Assembly: GCF_000188195.1 (NCBI RefSeq)
Contig: NZ_GL830951.1
Location: 1-42,876 of the forward strand
From: Succinatimonas hippei YIT 12066
GTDB taxonomy: Bacteria > Pseudomonadota > Gammaproteobacteria > Enterobacterales > Succinivibrionaceae
DNA: 42,876 nucleotides
Direction of reading: 5' to 3'
A model generated the notes under the pieces. The model was not told the origin of the DNA. It saw only the letters and a program-made list of their open reading frames with translations, and did no database searches. The first letter of the stretch is position 1. Every line of letters begins with the position of its first letter. The translations under genes were made by a program, and so were the position numbers. This document shows positions 1-7,339 of this stretch, one piece after another.

Positions 1-125
1 CTGGTAACTTTCACCTAAAGCTTGAGCGGTGGAGACTCCAAAAGTTAATTTATTGAAAAATAAGGAATTACTGCAAAGTAGCCAAATAAATCCAGCTATA
101 TTTAACTTGCTGGTAACTTTCACCT
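1..125. repeat. Pair of 16-bp direct repeats
   Basis: The 16-base word CTGGTAACTTTCACCT occurs at 1-16 and again at 110-125, a period of 109 bp. The following bases are also loosely similar (AAAGCTTG versus GAGGCTGTTG). The word is partly self-complementary (GGT...ACC). The first copy touches the window edge, so more copies may lie to the left. No open reading frame explains the match. Spacing is far too long for a CRISPR array. Nature unknown. Confidence 0.5.
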
Positions 126-172
126 GAGGCTGTTGAATGGTGAAGTGTCCTTTGTTCATAAAAGAACTATAG

Positions 173-268
173 TGACTCATTTTTGACAACAAAAAATTTG
201 AAAAGCTTAAAAAATAGGTTTAATTTAGAAAATTTGAAAAAATAAAAATATTTAATATCAATAAGATA
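173..268 (+). repeat. Long direct repeat, left copy (A)
   Basis: Bases 173-204 match 6625-6656 exactly (32 of 32). Similarity continues with scattered substitutions to about 268 and about 6718, ending in a shared ATATCAATA word. A third in-register copy lies at 5473-5527. The repeat contains a TTGACA box at 183-188 and is very AT-rich after it, so it could be promoter-like, a recombination scar, or the end of a lost element. This copy lies just beyond the 3' end of the helicase gene and bounds the left side of the helicase/ATPase/nuclease block. Confidence 0.75.
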
Positions 269-328
269 AATTATAAATACTTTTATAAATATTGAGTGGG
301 AATAGTTAGTTTTTAACTTTTTTCATAA

Positions 329-376
329 AAGGCCCTGATTTACATTTTAAAGGATGTAAGTCGGGGCTTAATTTTT
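329..376 (+). terminator. Rho-independent terminator, plus strand
   Basis: A long hairpin pairs 329-345 with 354-369 (AAGGCCCTGATTTACAT against ATGTAAGTCGGGGCTT, two G-U pairs and one bulge). The T-rich tail AATTTTTG follows. No plus-strand gene is visible upstream inside the window, so it serves either a gene left of the window or a short transcript starting near the TTGACA box at 183. Confidence 0.65.
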
Positions 377-384
377 GTTGCTTT

Positions 385-416
385 CATAAAAAGAAATTCC
401 AGACACTGTCTGGAAT
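385..416 (-). terminator. Terminator of the helicase gene
   Basis: A near-perfect palindrome at 396-416 (ATTCCAGACA, one base, TGTCTGGAAT) is followed on the minus strand by TTTCTTTTT (395 down to about 385). It lies 50 bp beyond the stop codon of the minus-strand helicase gene, so it is its likely terminator. The loop is short, and pairing would probably start at the eighth base. Confidence 0.7.
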
Positions 417-466
417 ATTTGAAGGAAAAAGAACTCTCTTAAATTTCAAGGTGGTTTTCAAAAAGG

Positions 467-3400
467 CTAATTGTATAGAATACTTTTACTTAAATATTTA
501 GCAGGAATTTCATTTTGAAGTTTTAACTTAAAGTTGATTGGAGATTCTCCTTCGTATGAGATAGGAGTTGCAAATCCAAGACAAGCATATGGAGCTCGTG
601 TTTTATTCTTATTGTATTTTTTATCACGAACAAATAGCAGCATATTGTTTTTAGAGTTGATTAAACGTTGTCCCTCTTTAGATTCTATTTTTACATTATT
701 TGACGTTTGCCAGTGGAAGGTTTGGTTGTCGATGGCATAGTCTTCATAAAGGGTGTTTTCGCTGTACTCATTAAGATTCTTATGTAATGTCACCATTAAG
801 ATGTTGATGTTATTTTTTTTGTCGTAAAAATGACCTTTGACCTGTGTAGTAGGGTTATCGTAGTCAAGAGCACTCAATAATTGATCTCTTGTATAAGTTC
901 CGTAAAGATCAAGAGGGCTGTTAGTAGTAAGTGGTTTTAAAGGTACATCAATATTATTTTCTAAGACTGCAATTAACTGCTGTAGTTCATCTTTGATGTT
1001 TTTACTAAACAAAAATCTCTTAAAGGCTTCAATATCTCCATTCTTTTCATCCCTGTAATAACTTATAAATAGCATTTTAAAAAATTGATTGGTGATATCA
1101 ATTTGTTCTTCTAAAAGAGATTCTTTAATAAAAGATAAAAAACGCTGACTATTTATGTGACTTATCTTTTGGAAGAATTGAAAGCCTTGTTTTGAGTTGG
1201 TATAAAAATCTTCTTTGATGATTAATGCGTTAGTTAGCAATGAGCTAAAACTACGATTATTGTTGTATATATCACCTAAATCTAGTTGATAATACTCTAT
1301 AAATTCTTGTAAAGAAGGAACTTTTTCAATCTGATCTCTAAGCTGCATTATTTTGGTTGTAAGATTTTTATTAGTATTTTGGGCAGATTTTATGTTGTCT
1401 AAAACGTTCTTCATGGCCTCTTTTTGAAGCTCAATAAAGCAATTTGGAGGTAAATTAATAAACCCGTCTTTAATTTCGTCTTGCAGGCTTTTCGTTCCTT
1501 TATTAAGAAGAGCTTGAAAACGCGAGCTGTAATTAAAATTGCGAGCTGCTTTTGCAATAAAGTCCAATACAACTAGATGATCTTTTCCAGGATATAAACG
1601 CAGTCCACGGCCTAATTGCTGCAAAAATATGGTTAAAGAATTTGTAGGGCGTAAAAAGAGGACAGTATTTACTTGGGGAATATCTACACCTTCATTGTAA
1701 AGATCGACTGTAAAGATGATAGAAATTTTTCCATCAATTAGCTCTTTTTGGGCATTGGCACGTTCTTGTGAACTGCTGCGCGAATTTAAGGCTAATGCTT
1801 TTATATCGCTGTTTTGGTTAAAAAAGTTAGCCATGTATTGGGCATGCTTTATATTTACACAAAAACCTAAAGCTTTTGTTTTTTCGATATTATCAACATA
1901 ATGTAAAAGTGTTTTTATTATATTGTCTGCTCTATAGAATGCGCTTTTAGAGTCGTCAACAAATACTTTTTCAAGTTGCTTTGTGTCATATTCGCCATTT
2001 TTCATGGCTATAGAGCTTAAATCAACAGTGTCGCTGATGCCAAAATAAGCAAATGGGCAGAGAAGACCTTTTTCTAGAGCTTGCGGTAACCTGATAGCAG
2101 CCGTTACTCCGTTATCAAAGTATTGGAAAATTTGGCGGTCGTCGTTTCGCTCTGGCGTAGCAGTAAGACCAAGAAGAATTTTTGGTTTTAAATATTTAAA
2201 TAAATCTTGATAACTATCAGCTCCGCCATGATGAGCTTCGTCAACGATAATAAAATCATAAAAATTAGCGCCACCATTGACTGTACAAATGTTTCTTACA
2301 TCTAAGGATTGGATGGTAATAAATAGATTCTCTCGTGAAATTGGTTTTTCACCCGAACAGCATATTTCTCCAAAATTTGGATTTCTTAAAATATATCTAA
2401 ATGTTTGTAATGCCTGTTCAAGAATTTCTTTTCTATGCGCAACAAAAAGAAGACGCGAGGTCTGTTTGTTTTTATCTTGTTGTTGCTTAAAACGCAGGTA
2501 GTCAAATGCAGCAATAACCGTCTTTCCTGTTCCTGTCGCCGCAACTATTAGATTTTTATTGCGGTTATAAAGTGTTCTTTGTATAGCTAGTTTATCTAAG
2601 ATTTCTTGTTGATAATCATATGGTTTGATATTAAAAAAAGTTGTATTTTGCGTATTTGTAATATTATTTTTTGGATTTTTTTCTTCCTGAAGAGCGTGTC
2701 TTAATTTTTCTATTTCTTCTACTTTTCCGCTAAACTCCTCAAAATCTGGAGAATTTAAGAAAAAATCAAAAGAATTTAGGACTTTTTGATATAAAAAGAA
2801 GTCGTAAAGTTCAGAAATCTTAATATTCCATTCAAGTCCGGAATTAAGCGCGGATCGTGATAGATTAGAAGAACCTACGTAAGCAGAACCGCAGCCGTTA
2901 TTTCGTTTGAAGATAAAAGCTTTAGCATGCATGCGAACTTTTTTACTGTCGTAGCATATTTTTATATGAGTATTTTTAAGCTTGGAAAACTCTTCTAATG
3001 CGCGAGATTCTGTTGCACCAATATACGTTGAAGTTAAGATTGTCAGGTTTCCGCCTCTATCTAAGAAGTCTTTAAGATCTTTTTCAATTTGCAAGAAACC
3101 GTAATATTTTATAAATGATATGAAAAAGCAGATATTATCGGCACTTCTAATCTCTGCTTTAATTTCATTGATAAAAGGGATTTCTCCATTTACGCCAGTA
3201 AAAATTTGGTTGATGTTTAAAGGTAGAGAAGGTCTTGAATATGTTGGAATTAATTCACTTTTTCTTATTTCTTGTAATATAGTGAGAGGATTTACAGGAG
3301 CGCTAATGGTAGATGATGGTAATTCTCTTATAGTTTGGTTAAGTATTTTGTATAGACTTGGCAGTAGATTTTTATCATCTTCATGTTCATTAATATATGA

Positions 3401-3553
3401 TCTTAAAATGTTTTTAATAAAATTAACAATTGATGAGATTCCCTCTGGATCTGCTCTAACAGATTTAGTTTCTTTGATTGTAATTTTTTCTTCTTCAAGA
3501 TCATTTAGATCTGCAAGCGTCAGCAAACGATCGTAAATTCCGTTATGTAGCAT
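467..3553 (-). CDS. PLD-nuclease / DEAD-box helicase / DUF3427 protein
   Basis: This 1028-residue protein joins three modules. Residues about 120-270 are phospholipase D-like: HAKAFIFK at 209 and GSSNLS at 228 form one HKD-type site. Residues about 310-670 are a superfamily 2 helicase: Walker A ATGTGKT at 339, DEAH at 438, TATP at 464, NEGVDIP at 620 and QLGRGLR at 646. The C-terminal third matches the layout of DUF3427-family helicases. Such proteins are thought to act on nucleic acids, and the PLD module may cut or bind DNA, but no substrate is established here. The ATG at 3553 is the only good start. The gene is transcribed alone and ends at a strong hairpin. It neighbours an AAA ATPase and a YhcG nuclease, which suggests a defence or DNA-repair island. 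Family call is firm, role is inferred. Confidence 0.88.
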   Translation of the reverse strand: MLHNGIYDRLLTLADLNDLEEEKITIKETKSVRADPEGISSIVNFIKNILRSYINEHEDDKNLLPSLYKILNQTIRELPSSTISAPVNPLTILQEIRKSELIPTYSRPSLPLNINQIFTGVNGEIPFINEIKAEIRSADNICFFISFIKYYGFLQIEKDLKDFLDRGGNLTILTSTYIGATESRALEEFSKLKNTHIKICYDSKKVRMHAKAFIFKRNNGCGSAYVGSSNLSRSALNSGLEWNIKISELYDFFLYQKVLNSFDFFLNSPDFEEFSGKVEEIEKLRHALQEEKNPKNNITNTQNTTFFNIKPYDYQQEILDKLAIQRTLYNRNKNLIVAATGTGKTVIAAFDYLRFKQQQDKNKQTSRLLFVAHRKEILEQALQTFRYILRNPNFGEICCSGEKPISRENLFITIQSLDVRNICTVNGGANFYDFIIVDEAHHGGADSYQDLFKYLKPKILLGLTATPERNDDRQIFQYFDNGVTAAIRLPQALEKGLLCPFAYFGISDTVDLSSIAMKNGEYDTKQLEKVFVDDSKSAFYRADNIIKTLLHYVDNIEKTKALGFCVNIKHAQYMANFFNQNSDIKALALNSRSSSQERANAQKELIDGKISIIFTVDLYNEGVDIPQVNTVLFLRPTNSLTIFLQQLGRGLRLYPGKDHLVVLDFIAKAARNFNYSSRFQALLNKGTKSLQDEIKDGFINLPPNCFIELQKEAMKNVLDNIKSAQNTNKNLTTKIMQLRDQIEKVPSLQEFIEYYQLDLGDIYNNNRSFSSLLTNALIIKEDFYTNSKQGFQFFQKISHINSQRFLSFIKESLLEEQIDITNQFFKMLFISYYRDEKNGDIEAFKRFLFSKNIKDELQQLIAVLENNIDVPLKPLTTNSPLDLYGTYTRDQLLSALDYDNPTTQVKGHFYDKKNNINILMVTLHKNLNEYSENTLYEDYAIDNQTFHWQTSNNVKIESKEGQRLINSKNNMLLFVRDKKYNKNKTRAPYACLGFATPISYEGESPINFKLKLQNEIPAKYLSKSILYN

Positions 3554-3727
3554 TTAATTTTGTCCAAACTGTAACATTTATTTATGCAGCATAAGGAAAA
3601 ATTAATGGCAATTAAATAGTGAAACTCCACAATTTTTAAGTTTGCTTTCTTTTAATAAATATAGGCAAGATAGAAAAGTACATGGAAAGATAAACTTGAA
3701 CCCATTTAGGAAGGAGTTAGCAATAAA

Positions 3728-5005
3728 TTAATCTTTTAGGCATCCAATCGGAATAACAAAAACACCATCCGGACGTTTATATCCATACTCGGTTCCTGTT
3801 AAAACTATTTTAAGGTCAGGTAATCTCATAGGAACCTGTTTTTCTTTTTCGTTATATTGCCTTACTAACTCCTCAATTTTACAGAGGTGTTTTGCTCCAG
3901 CATCGATTTCGTTTGAACCAAGCTTAATCTCAATAAGTGCATAACGGCCGTCGCCAAGATGTAATACTGCATCGGCTTCTAAGTCATAGCGATCATGATA
4001 GTATGATACTTGTCCTTCTTGGAGGCTTGAGTACACTCTTAAATCACGTATGCACAGAGATTCAAAAAGAAAACCTAAAGTTTTAAAATCAGTATTAAAG
4101 TATTCCGGAGTTAATCCTAAAGCGGCAACCGCAATAGAAGGGTCTATAAAATTTCGTTTGTCTTTTGAACGTATTGCTGATTTTGAGCGAATAGCCGGAT
4201 TCCATGCCGGGACATCTTCAATAATGAAAAGTTTTTCTAGTGCCTCTACATAGTTCCAAAAAGATGATTCTGATATTCCGCAATTTTGAATATCTTTAAA
4301 AATTGTTTGTAATGTGCTTAAAGTGCACAAATTACGAGCATATGATCTTATTAGGTTTTGAGTCCATAATTTATTTCTTTTCGTCCCGTCAATGTTTGAA
4401 ATATCTACAGAGCAGGTCTGGGCAAACAGATCTTTTGCAATTTGTAATTGAGCTATTGGAGTGGTGTTGTTGATTGCGCTAGGCCATCCTCCGCGGCAAA
4501 TAGCAAAAATCAGTTTATCTATGCTTAAGTCGGAATGGCATCCATCAAATGAGTTAGGATCGTTGAATAATTGAGAAAGAGAAACCGTACCGTTGGATTC
4601 TTCACTTTCATAAAGACTCATCGGATACATTTTCATTGTTGAAATTCTGAGCGTTCCGCTATGAGGTGTCTGCACATTTTGTGAAGTTGATCCTGTAAGG
4701 ATATATAGTCCGTTTTTCTGTTCATCATCGATGGATTTTCTTATAGCTCCCCAAATTTTTGGAGCATCCTGCCACTCGTCAAACAGGCGCGGTTTTTCTC
4801 CTATTAATAATTTTGACGGTTGCACTTGAGCCACGGATAGTAAATTATCACGAAGATCTTCATCTTGAAATTCAACAACACTTTTGGCCTTTTGCTTGCC
4901 GGTTGTCGTTTTACCGCATCCTTTAGGTCCGGTGATGAGAGTTGCACCGAATGATTCTAATTTTAGCTCTAATAAACCGTCAACAATACGCTTTTTGTAA
5001 ATCAT
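3728..5005 (-). CDS. AAA ATPase with DUF4143-type C-terminal domain
   Basis: The protein has 425 residues. The N-terminal AAA domain shows Walker A GPKGCGKTT near residue 27 and a Walker B-like stretch LFDEWQD near 73. The C-terminal half resembles DUF4143: it ends in a PD-(D/E)XK-like core, with an acidic residue in YDLEADAVLH followed by the strand ALIEIKLG. Proteins of this kind are widespread in bacteria and archaea, but their function is largely unknown; toxin-antitoxin, mobile-element and defence contexts are common. The ATG at 5005 directly follows an AT-rich leader, and a 23-bp tandem repeat array begins 56 bp upstream, which may control this gene. About 170 bp separate its stop from the helicase start, so the two genes may be separately transcribed. 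Confidence 0.85.
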   Translation of the reverse strand: MIYKKRIVDGLLELKLESFGATLITGPKGCGKTTTGKQKAKSVVEFQDEDLRDNLLSVAQVQPSKLLIGEKPRLFDEWQDAPKIWGAIRKSIDDEQKNGLYILTGSTSQNVQTPHSGTLRISTMKMYPMSLYESEESNGTVSLSQLFNDPNSFDGCHSDLSIDKLIFAICRGGWPSAINNTTPIAQLQIAKDLFAQTCSVDISNIDGTKRNKLWTQNLIRSYARNLCTLSTLQTIFKDIQNCGISESSFWNYVEALEKLFIIEDVPAWNPAIRSKSAIRSKDKRNFIDPSIAVAALGLTPEYFNTDFKTLGFLFESLCIRDLRVYSSLQEGQVSYYHDRYDLEADAVLHLGDGRYALIEIKLGSNEIDAGAKHLCKIEELVRQYNEKEKQVPMRLPDLKIVLTGTEYGYKRPDGVFVIPIGCLKD

Positions 5006-5060
5006 ATTTTTTGCTTTTAACTTATTAATATTTATAATTAATTATAGTTCAAGATTTTTA

Positions 5061-5198
5061 TTGTTACAACTTTTTGCGGTATTTTGTTACAGTAATTTGC
5101 GGTATTTTGTTACAGTAATTTGCGGTATTTTGTTACAGTATTTTGCGGTATTTTATTACAGTATTTTGCGGTGTTTCCTTACAGCTTTTTGCGATTCT
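5061..5198 (+). repeat. Tandem array of 23-bp repeats (iteron-like)
   Basis: Six head-to-tail units of 23 bp start at 5061, 5084, 5107, 5130, 5153 and 5176. Each reads approximately TTGTTACAGT then AATTTGCGGTATT. Units 2 and 3 are identical, unit 4 differs from them by one base, units 1 and 5 by a few, and unit 6 is decayed. The array ends 56 bp upstream of the ATPase start on the opposite strand. A period of two helical turns fits side-by-side protein binding (operator or iteron), but replication slippage of a neutral minisatellite is also possible. Confidence 0.9.
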
Positions 5199-5545
5199 TG
5201 TGGCATATAAATAAGAAAAACGAAAGTAAAATTTTGAACGGTATCGAAAATCTCCAGTAGTCTAGCCATCCTATGCCAATAAATGGGCCAAGTTGTGCCA
5301 ACTTTTGGGCCGCTGATTTTTAGCTCTTTTTCTTTATACTATTATCTAATTTAAGATTTATTTTTCCATAGTCTCGATTTTGCTGTGTTTATAAGGAAAA
5401 ATTTATAGCTAAACCATATTTGGCATTCTCCATTCGTGAGGTTTCATTTTGCTCAAAAAAGATTTGTTGCGGCTCATTTTTGATGTCCAAGAATTTTAAC
5501 ACGTTGAATAATAATATTAATTTAGAACCGATCTGGGGTAATTTT
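5199..5545. other. Intergenic region between ATPase and YhcG genes
   Basis: About 350 bp hold no convincing gene. An imperfect hairpin at 5286-5311 (GGCCAAGTTG against CAACTT, TT, GGGCC) followed by a T-rich run to about 5338 looks like a plus-strand terminator, although no plus-strand gene precedes it. A third copy of the long direct repeat lies at 5473-5527. Open frames extend upstream of the nuclease start to a TTG at 5420, but this extension has no family resemblance. Confidence 0.45.
5473..5527 (+). repeat. Long direct repeat, degenerate middle copy (C)
   Basis: Aligned without gaps to 176-230, this stretch shares about 41 of 55 bases. The first 11 bases (CTCATTTTTGA) and the last 11 (TTAATTTAGAA) are identical and in register. 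It ends 18 bp before the probable ATG of the YhcG-type nuclease. The match is weaker than that between the outer copies, and AT-richness inflates it, but the two exact end blocks at fixed spacing are hard to explain by chance. Confidence 0.5.
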
Positions 5546-6613
5546 ATGGTTTTAGAAACGGCAGTTAGAATTAATTCAATGCAAGATGCTATCCATGATA
5601 TACATCGAATTCTTTTATCTTCTAGAGATAAAGTTGCTCACCGGATCAATAACGAACTTTTATCTGTTTATTGGAATGTTGGTAAAAAAATTTTTGAGTT
5701 TCAACAGAAGTTTAAAGATCAAGTTGTTGATGAGCCAAAAAGCTTGAAGGAAATTTCTAAATCCTTAACTAGCGACTTTGGGACTGGTTTTTCAGTTTCA
5801 AATTTGCGTTTGATGAAGCTCTTTTATTTAACCTATCCACAGCAACAGACACTGTCTGTTTCGTTATCTTGGGCACATTATTGTGTGCTTTTGACAATTT
5901 CAGATCCATATAAACGCAGTTTTTATGAAAAAGAATCTGTTTATGCAAATTGGTCTGTCCGTGAGCTAAAACGCCAAATTGAAAGTTCGTTGTTTGAGAG
6001 ATTAATGTTGTCACAAGGTGAAGCAAATAAAGAAAAGCTCCTTTCTCTTGCGCTAAAAGACAATGAAATTTCGCAACCGAAAGATATTTTACAAGATCCT
6101 CATGTTTTTGAGTTTTTAGGCATTCCGGAAGACAAAACTCTTGTGGAAAGTGATCTTGAAAAAGCACTAGTTCAACAAATAAAGAAATTTCTTTTGGAAT
6201 TAGGTCGCGGCTTCATGTTTGTTGGAACGCAGCAACCTGTAACCATCAACAATACGCATTATTATGTCGATATGGTCTTTTACAATAAAATTTTGCGGGC
6301 TTATGTTTTAATTGAAATAAAGACGACAAAGTTTACTCCTGAGGCTGCAGGTCAAATTAATATGTTCCTTAATTATTATGCTTCTGAAGTAAATGATTAT
6401 GATGACAACCCACCTATAGGCATTATTTTGTGTACTAACAAAGATAGTGTCTCTGCAGAATACGCTTTAGGTGGGTTGGCGAATAAAATTTTTGCTTCCC
6501 GCTATGTTTTGTACATTCCAAACAAGGAACAGCTGATTTCTCAGGCTGAGGCTGTTTTGCAGAAATGGCATGGCAAGTCAGACGATAAAGATGACAAAGA
6601 TTCTCCCAACTGA
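5546..6613 (+). CDS. YhcG-type PD-(D/E)XK nuclease domain protein (DUF1016)
   Basis: From the ATG at 5546 this is a 355-residue protein matching YhcG in length. The N-terminal helical, winged-helix-like part contains NNELLSVYWNVGKKI. The C-terminal nuclease-like core runs through YYVDMVFYNKIL, with D as the first acidic residue, LIEIKTTKFTPE as the E-x-K motif, then GQINMFLNYY and PIGIILCTNK. YhcG proteins are linked to DNA processing and often occur with helicases or restriction systems; the cellular role remains unproved. GGGGTA lies five bases before the chosen ATG, whereas the frame continues upstream to a TTG at 5420 through sequence unlike the family. A repeat copy sits immediately upstream. 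Confidence 0.88.
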   Translation: MVLETAVRINSMQDAIHDIHRILLSSRDKVAHRINNELLSVYWNVGKKIFEFQQKFKDQVVDEPKSLKEISKSLTSDFGTGFSVSNLRLMKLFYLTYPQQQTLSVSLSWAHYCVLLTISDPYKRSFYEKESVYANWSVRELKRQIESSLFERLMLSQGEANKEKLLSLALKDNEISQPKDILQDPHVFEFLGIPEDKTLVESDLEKALVQQIKKFLLELGRGFMFVGTQQPVTINNTHYYVDMVFYNKILRAYVLIEIKTTKFTPEAAGQINMFLNYYASEVNDYDDNPPIGIILCTNKDSVSAEYALGGLANKIFASRYVLYIPNKEQLISQAEAVLQKWHGKSDDKDDKDSPN

Positions 6614-6624
6614 AAGTAAAGAGC

Positions 6625-6718
6625 TGACTCATTTTTGACAACAAAAAATTTGAAAAACTTAAAGAATAAGATTAATTCCGGATATTTGAAAATTTTTGTT
6701 AAATATCAATATAATAAA
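6625..6718 (+). repeat. Long direct repeat, right copy (B)
   Basis: It begins 12 bp after the YhcG stop codon and repeats 173-268. The first 32 bases are identical, the next roughly 20 nearly so, and similarity fades to about 6718. Together with the left copy it brackets 6.4 kb carrying helicase, ATPase and nuclease genes. It also lies upstream of the acetyltransferase gene and includes a TTGACA box at 6635-6640 that might serve as a promoter element. Confidence 0.75.
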
Positions 6719-6799
6719 CAAAGTCATATGTTAATTAAAATTAAGTGGATATAAGAATAAATCGGCAAAACCAATAAAAATAAGTTGAAAGGTGACAGA

Positions 6800-7339
6800 A
6801 TGGTTAATGATTTTTTCTTGATGTCAAACCGGATAGGATTTTCAAAGTGGCAGAAAAGTGATAGTAAATTAGCAGAAATACTATGGGGCGATCCTGATGT
6901 TACAAGATATATTTGTGCAAGCGGCGCGTTTAGTGCGGACGACATTTCTGCTCGGTTAGAAAAAGAAATAAATAATGAAAAAGAATATCATGTTCAATAT
7001 TGGCCTATTTTCGAACTTTCATCAAAGGCTTTTATTGGATGTTGCGGCCTAAGACCATATCGTATGAATAAATATGAAATGGGCTTTCACTTACGTCCGC
7101 AATTTTGGGGAAAGGGGTATGCAACAGAAGCCGCAAAGGCTGTAATAGACTATGCGTTTTCTGTTTTGAAAGCAGAAGCTCTTTTTGCAGGACATAATCC
7201 CAACAATATTGCATCTTCAAAGATCTTACTTAAACTTGGTTTTAGCTATATCGGCAATGTGTTTTATGAGCCAACAGGTTTAAACCATCCGTCTTATGAA
7301 TTAAGACAAAAATTTTATAAAACACATATAAAGCTTTGA
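6800..7339 (+). CDS. GNAT acetyltransferase, RimJ/RimL-like
   Basis: The 179-residue protein has the GNAT fold of the ribosomal-protein/aminoglycoside acetyltransferase branch (Acetyltransf_3). It shows YWPIFELSSKAFIGCCGLRPY, the acetyl-CoA loop FWGKGYATEAAKAVIDYAF, and the C-terminal HNPNNIASSKILLKLGF. Such enzymes transfer acetyl from acetyl-CoA to an amino group of a protein or small molecule; the substrate here is unknown. The ATG at 6800 is preferred to the upstream TTG at 6785 because GAAAGGTG lies six bases before it. It stands alone, directly after the right copy of the long repeat, and may belong to the accessory block or mark its edge. Confidence 0.85.
   Translation: MVNDFFLMSNRIGFSKWQKSDSKLAEILWGDPDVTRYICASGAFSADDISARLEKEINNEKEYHVQYWPIFELSSKAFIGCCGLRPYRMNKYEMGFHLRPQFWGKGYATEAAKAVIDYAFSVLKAEALFAGHNPNNIASSKILLKLGFSYIGNVFYEPTGLNHPSYELRQKFYKTHIKL

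Follow-up and report, generated by a model that had tools for sequence, protein, structure and literature searches.

A conserved 23-bp tandem array at the predicted promoter of PDC-S01 ATPase-nuclease genes, a defence candidate found in Succinatimonas hippei and many other microbes

PDC-S01 (COG1373, or AAA_14-DUF4143) is described as a defence candidate in which an ATPase is fused to a domain of the PD-(D/E)XK superfamily, and it takes fourth place by frequency among the defences of prokaryotes (PMC12988326). In a rumen survey it headed the individual loci by frequency (PMC13356809), and COG1373 is among the genes common to gut genera (PMC10782964). Validation is pending for most PDCs (PMC12988326), and no mechanism for PDC-S01 is given in the consulted parts of PMC12988326 and PMC13356809. 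The present study concerns one such gene in Succinatimonas hippei YIT 12066, within a stretch of 42,876 nucleotides (contig NZ_GL830951.1, positions 1 to 42,876; hereafter, the window). The window protein is a PDC-S01 member by profile, and its gene is preceded by a 23-bp tandem array. Such an array at PDC-S01 is not mentioned in the consulted parts of either paper ("tandem" is absent from PMC13356809, and "repeat" in PMC12988326 concerns other things), and no link between DUF4143 and tandem repeats was found in open-licence publications, one of which mentions DUF4143. The family itself is known by profile and counted in surveys; a description of its conserved promoter array did not turn up in the open-licence literature searched. 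Within the wider DUF4143 family, only a part has the array.

STAND transcription activators of the MalT and SARP/AfsR type combine a nucleotide switch with a winged helix, and they occupy tandem sites lying just 5′ of the −35 box in helical register. The window system resembles the MalT-type activators in its apparent STAND-like core, its putative winged helix and its tandem promoter sites, and one Foldseek match of the protein is titled for the maltose system (8bob_C, template-modelling (TM) score 0.28–0.29). In contrast to these activators, however, no sensor domain was seen in the window protein, which has a PD-(D/E)XK-like domain instead, and the sites were seen only at its own gene. Another familiar arrangement is that of the plasmid Rep iterons, in which repeats of about 20 bp stand in tandem next to the gene of their presumed binding protein; they exist in many mutually different sets. 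Unlike iterons, the array stands at a promoter and occurs on chromosomes, plasmids and phage contigs, and nothing indicates an origin or replication function. The BrickBuilt elements of Porphyromonas gingivalis, also from a Bacteroidales genome, are likewise 23-nt imperfect tandem direct repeats, but they lie between various genes inside transposon-like elements, and "ATPase" and "DUF4143" are absent from the main text as consulted (PMC4596501); this comparison is one of descriptions and not of unit sequences.

The array among relatives of the window gene

The ATPase gene occupies positions 3728–5005 on the minus strand. The array lies 5′ of it at 5061–5193, between this gene and the divergent gene of a YhcG-type nuclease, and comprises 5.8 copies of a unit that reads ACAAAATACCGCAAAATACTGTA on the gene strand. 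Relatives were collected from the genomes of named species and from a viral collection. Of 581 relatives in the genomes, the best 80 entered the sample, which is therefore weighted towards close ones. One hundred of 105 loci were usable: L098, L144, L159, L179 and L187 were dropped as truncated or with less than 300 bp upstream, L212 was omitted as a copy of L206, L213 and L214 are fragments, and L124 lies on the same contig as L205.

In 96 of the 100 relatives, autocorrelation of the upstream DNA was strongest at a lag of 23 or 46 bp. Tandem Repeats Finder reported an array with a period of 23, 46 or 69 bp upstream of 79 of 100 genes, downstream of 1 of 92, and before 1 of 304 other open reading frames in these loci; the control upstream regions had no common lag (top lag in 23 of 304). 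Close ATPase relatives of the same family mostly have arrays of equal period and other sequences. The 96 arrays have a mean of 4.0 copies, with up to about ten in some, and end a median of 53 bp before the start codon. Their unit consensus on the gene strand is aYAAAAtaCCnCAAAAnnnnnnA, with the C at position 12 present in 89%, and successive units of one array are 84% identical on average. The window protein belongs to this array-bearing PDC-S01 clade, having a 23-bp periodic array 5′ of its start.

By record title, the hosts include Bacillota, Bacteroidales, Spirochaetia, Coriobacteriales, Verrucomicrobia, Thermoguttaceae, Methanomethylophilaceae (twice) and others; the two archaeal-labelled contigs (L145 and L147) stem from metagenome-assembled genomes, where contamination is possible. 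Array-bearing loci are also present on several viral contigs, in one of which the gene and its array stand amid genes read as phage head and tail genes. The lag was 23 in all four plasmid and phage records of this clade that were fetched, namely Bacteroides uniformis pBUN1, plasmids of B. ovatus and Collinsella aerofaciens, and one phage record. No gene family accompanies the ATPase regularly: within flanks of about 1.5 to 4 kb, the most frequent neighbour family occurred in at most 4 of 100 loci. We consider it probable that the ATPase-nuclease and its promoter array form a self-contained unit that spreads horizontally.

The array is not a property of all DUF4143 proteins. Among 44 other members of the family, only seven had a best lag of 23 or 46; five of these are convincing (L306, L310, L312, L348 and L349), and two (L118 and L303) are at noise level. 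The distant relatives L102–L110 have no array upstream. The five convincing loci constitute a second DUF4143 group, with about 25–27% identity to the window protein and a 23/46-bp upstream periodicity, so the origin of the array may lie further back than a single clade. Five further DUF4143 genes were seen in the S. hippei genome (G000), on contigs C79, C44, C105, C1 and C109. No 23-bp array was found at the four own-genome paralogues that were scored, L321 (the same as L339), L340, L341 and L342.

The ATPase-nuclease protein and its pairing with the array

The window protein matches the PADLOC profile of PDC-S01 (PDLC04790) with an E value of 6.8e-52 over residues 5–381 of 425. Its Walker A (GPKGCGKT) and Walker B (LFDEWQ) motifs are intact, and G26, C30–T33, D76 and E77 are invariant in 18 sequences. 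By motif, a PD-(D/E)XK core can be placed in DUF4143: D345 and E359 are invariant, the window protein has E-I-K, and R stands for K in 2 of the 18. Card1/Cdn1 nucleases are in the Foldseek list at TM scores of 0.17–0.28, which are low and carry little weight. A sequence-profile comparison of the window ATPase with the PDB gave no match up to an E value of 0.01. In the AlphaFold2 model (pLDDT 90.8), an ATPase core is followed by helices of the winged-helix type at about residues 212–265 and by an alpha/beta domain at the C-terminus. Judged by secondary structure and by the STAND matches, the first two would be a STAND-like core and a winged helix. In VIA-align, whose rows cover residues 1–332, the top matches were PABY2304 (Z 15.4, 257 residues aligned, 4.7 Å) and Sso1545 (Z 14.3, 253 residues aligned, 4.3 Å), followed by STAND proteins of the NLR, CED-4 and Apaf-1 type, a shared fold that shows no function.

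Genomes may hold several such genes, up to six or seven in one case, and in 38 genomes that contain such a gene the number of matches ranged from one to eight, partial ones included. Across 25 genomes, the 23-bp period was found at 67 of 69 distinct genes, and the units differ between paralogues. Array similarity climbs with protein identity, with a Spearman coefficient of 0.62 in 77 sequences and 0.47 in 122. Below 50% protein identity it was 0.46–0.49, compared with 0.45 for shuffled units. At equal protein identity, pairs from the same genome (84 in all, a small number that makes the comparison less secure) and pairs from different genomes had equal array similarity, which argues that the array goes with the protein rather than with the host. 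Since no neighbour family recurs and the array tracks the protein, the simplest partner of the array would be the protein itself.

In eight genomes, an array of Hoylesella buccalis gave four matches, each directly before an ATPase gene of this kind. Solo arrays that could act in trans were found neither in the S. hippei genome nor, with that one array, in eight further genomes. A second array of the window sequence was not found elsewhere in the S. hippei genome, which has one lone unit at C124:10476 (96% over 25 bases), 3′ of two genes.

Which part of the protein might recognise the array was approached through partial correlations of protein stretches with array similarity. In 77 sequences, the correlation peaked at residues 231–280. 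The larger set of 122 sequences is less favourable, as residues 136–190 ranked highest and 236–265 second, which makes the winged helix one of two or three peaks, and the partial correlations there were only 0.1–0.16. Among pairs of 42–85% identity in this larger set, residues 236–265 ranked first. These sequence comparisons suggest that the winged-helix stretch may read the array.

Given the array, one would expect the protein to bind DNA, each gene to have its binding site and to be self-regulated, and paralogues to be insulated from one another. It also helps to recognise members of the family, and it offers a set of mutually different candidate protein-operator pairs.

Promoter geometry and control of the gene

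The spacer between array and gene often contains a recognisable promoter, which is sigma70-like in many Bacillota-titled loci and of the form TTTG-N-TAnnTTTG in many Bacteroidales-titled ones. Among the strong promoter calls in 153 arrays, the upstream box fell at the array end (−15 to +10) in 33 of 63 sigma70-like and 40 of 60 Bacteroidetes-like cases. In arrays with a clear motif, the conserved C of the final unit precedes the −10 box by 41–44 bp in 16 of 31 cases of the first promoter type and by 39–41 bp in 28 of 40 of the second. Side classes of this distance lie near 20, 30, 52 and 63 bp, about one helical turn apart, and most of the remaining arrays are displaced by roughly one or two such turns. 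The register analysis covered arrays with a motif score of at least 9 (100 of 153), with the promoter search starting 5 bp before the conserved C. When each 70% protein cluster was represented by one locus, the distance was 39–43 bp in 9 of 20 loci of the Bacteroidetes type, where shuffles gave a mean of 0.2 and a maximum of 2. A site just 5′ of the −35 box, on one helical face and irrespective of promoter type, fits a DNA-bound activator that touches RNA polymerase.

The reading that we favour, as the probable one, is that the ATPase-nuclease binds its own array through the winged helix and controls, most likely activates, its own transcription. One or more protomers would sit on each 23-bp unit, beside RNA polymerase; the bound protein would regulate, and most likely activate, its own promoter, and the PD-(D/E)XK domain would act as the effector. 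Binding to the array, activation, nuclease action and a role in defence are what we infer from these sequence patterns.

Several observations weigh against this reading. The promoters are consensus calls, and in 30 of 63 sigma70-like and 20 of 60 Bacteroidetes-like strong calls the −35 box lies away from the array end. After clustering, the sigma70-like loci gave 6 of 46 in register, which is indistinguishable from the null (mean 2.8, maximum 9). Arrays also descend together, and the 96 fall to 77 at 85% protein identity, so the counts are not independent. At the window gene, 30 bp separate the predicted −10 box (TATAAT, 5041–5046, minus strand) from the conserved C in the final unit, which places the gene in the 30-bp class and not in the 41-bp class.

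The window promoter bears on a further possibility as well. Its predicted −35 box (TTGTAA, 5064–5069, minus strand, with a 17-bp spacer) lies inside the last array unit, and in several other loci the last unit likewise overlaps the predicted −35 box. Such an overlap would suit an autorepressor operator, at which the protein shuts its own promoter, so that little of a toxic nuclease is present before some trigger releases it. Tight self-limitation is a sensible property for a nuclease, and the evidence for cognate pairs applies equally here. However, most units stand 5′ of the −35 box, and in two promoter types they keep a helical register with the −10 box that is more activator-like; we regard autorepression as rather unlikely.

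The composition of the array points in another direction. The unit is 51% A, its strand is A-rich and G-poor, and its A-tracts are about 10 bp apart; such A-rich phased units look like UP elements, a resemblance that also counts against self-binding. The array would then be an extended UP element, whose phased A-tracts bind the alpha subunit of RNA polymerase and give a constitutively strong promoter that needs no cognate protein. The units often adjoin the −35 box, which is where UP elements are placed. Yet an UP element would not be expected to conserve a C at position 12, to keep its units so alike or to reach such copy numbers, nor would A-poor units in some paralogues and a divergence tied to the protein be expected of it. 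This explanation seems improbable to us.

Tandem repeats directly 5′ of a nuclease gene, on an A-rich and G-poor strand, also recall the repeat RNA of type III toxin-antitoxin systems, in which case the array would be transcribed as an RNA antitoxin or guide. In many loci, however, a promoter is predicted downstream of the array and before the gene, so the array would be outside that transcript, although a second promoter further upstream is possible. To our knowledge, the ATPase-nuclease family is unrelated to the known type III toxins. We consider an RNA function very unlikely.

A wider interpretation can be put forward, which we offer tentatively and hold as somewhat less probable than the alternatives to it taken together. 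A clade of PDC-S01 may consist of self-addressed switches, each protein recognising a private 23-bp address at its own promoter, so that paralogues work without cross-talk, and the occupancy of the array may store the protein and set the trigger of the nuclease. Genes addressed in this way would still work after transfer between phyla because the address would also fit the promoter of the new host.

The three-gene block and the direct repeat R

The ATPase gene is the middle one of three. On one side, at 467–3553 on the minus strand, lies a gene whose product has PLD, SF2 helicase and C-terminal DUF3427 domains by Pfam. It matches PADLOC mREase_IV (PDLC03659) with an E value of 1.5e-171 over residues 106–1021, and PDB entry 7clg_A ("Putative helicase", 953 aa), presumably the SauUSI structure, with an E value of 8.4e-80 over residues 128–848; DUF3427 falls mostly outside the latter match. 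A PLD nuclease, an SF2 ATPase and a C-terminal domain are thus joined in one chain, as in SauUSI (PMC7913695, consulted in part), and the product is a predicted SauUSI-type type IV restriction enzyme. On the other side, at 5546–6613 on the plus strand, is the gene of a YhcG-type nuclease (DUF1016_N and YhcG_C by Pfam, PADLOC candidate PDC-S02; the mechanical start of the open reading frame is 5420).

The original prediction, made from the sequence of this DNA, held that exactly these three genes stand between the copies of a long direct repeat (R) in an AT-rich accessory block with no integrase inside, which suggested a movable unit, and did not recognise the combination as a described defence system. 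Much of the description holds. The Pfam domain assignments agree for all three genes, the GC content is 33.1% in positions 1–6720 and 40.0% in the rest of the window, and the block contains no integrase. Positions 173–204 and 6625–6656 are identical over 32 bp in direct orientation, and the similarity, which had been put at about 95 bp, is 81% over 98 bp by BLAST and continues more weakly to about 120–130 bp in alignment. The pair scored 102, compared with 47 for the best of 500 dinucleotide-preserving shuffles. As to novelty, no described system matching the trio was seen, but each single gene is a known or candidate defence gene.

The proposed excision unit fared less well. The direct repeat is real, the block is AT-rich, and 32 identical base pairs could recombine, so that the three genes might enter or leave together by recombination between the R copies. 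However, R is not confined to the ends. A partial third copy lies on contig C24 of the same genome, where it spans the start of an AlbA_2 gene, and in a genome of another genus (G033) a full copy of R, 93% identical over 132 bp to copy 1 (173–304, plus strand), stands directly 3′ of a YhcG gene that is 87% identical to the window YhcG gene over 1049 bp. Copy 2 (6625–6746, plus strand), found by sequence comparison and model match, likewise follows the YhcG stop codon directly. No helicase or ATPase match was found in G033, a genome that is 89% complete and whose YhcG gene is cut by a contig end. Elsewhere, the three families were not seen together as a conserved system: among the loci fetched (with flanks of at most 1.5 kb for the helicase and YhcG), only L184 outside the window's own region had two of the three. 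An integrative cassette bounded by R was rejected on the distribution of R, and a recombining unit, with no integrase in the block, appears distinctly improbable. Instead, each of the three genes is likely to be a single-gene defence module in its own right, and the three adjoin one another in an AT-rich island.

A sequence model of R, built from the four known copies, matched only four places in 56 genomes of the family: the window twice (copy 1 being itself in the model), the partial C24 copy and G033. Three of the four are rows of the model and none is new, and its filters lose weak matches. In these genomes, R thus has no appearance of a common dispersed repeat, and a single exact 22-base scan of viral contigs gave no match. 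R is probably flank DNA common to several genes of the AT-rich island, not the ends of a cassette, and the best-supported statement on it is that it accompanies YhcG in two genera. A weak R-like stretch at 5448–5527 (plus strand) spans the YhcG gene start, with 72.5% identity over 80 bp. It scored 50 against copy 1 (best of 500 shuffles, 33) and 40 against copy 2 (best shuffle 37, a bare excess), and its score of 22 against the C24 copy was no better than shuffles, which reach 36.

A 34-bp stretch at the end of C24 matches the start of the window at 94% identity, which suggests that the two contigs may be neighbours; if C24 adjoins the window, R would mark boundaries repeatedly within a larger defence island. 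At these same ends, the sequence CTGGTAACTTTCACC occurs twice in the first bases of the contig, about 109 bp apart (window 1–16 and 110–125), and recurs at the C24 end (L085, 1–34), perhaps as a tandem repeat that broke the assembly. C24 (L085, 1–8981) carries, all in the same direction, an MmeI-type methyltransferase near the contig end, an SF2 helicase-like protein, a GIY-YIG/T5orf172 protein, a transglycosylase-domain protein, a small protein without a Pfam match and the AlbA_2 protein. The transglycosylase is odd company in this cluster.

Adjoining the block, at 6785–7339, is a GNAT acetyltransferase gene with a 58%-identical paralogue at C139:1590–2102 of the same genome; across the 58 other genomes searched, no match exceeded 32%. 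Downstream of R, the palindrome CCAGACA[C/G]TGTCTGG is present both in the window (399–413) and in G033 (L046, 1243–1257).

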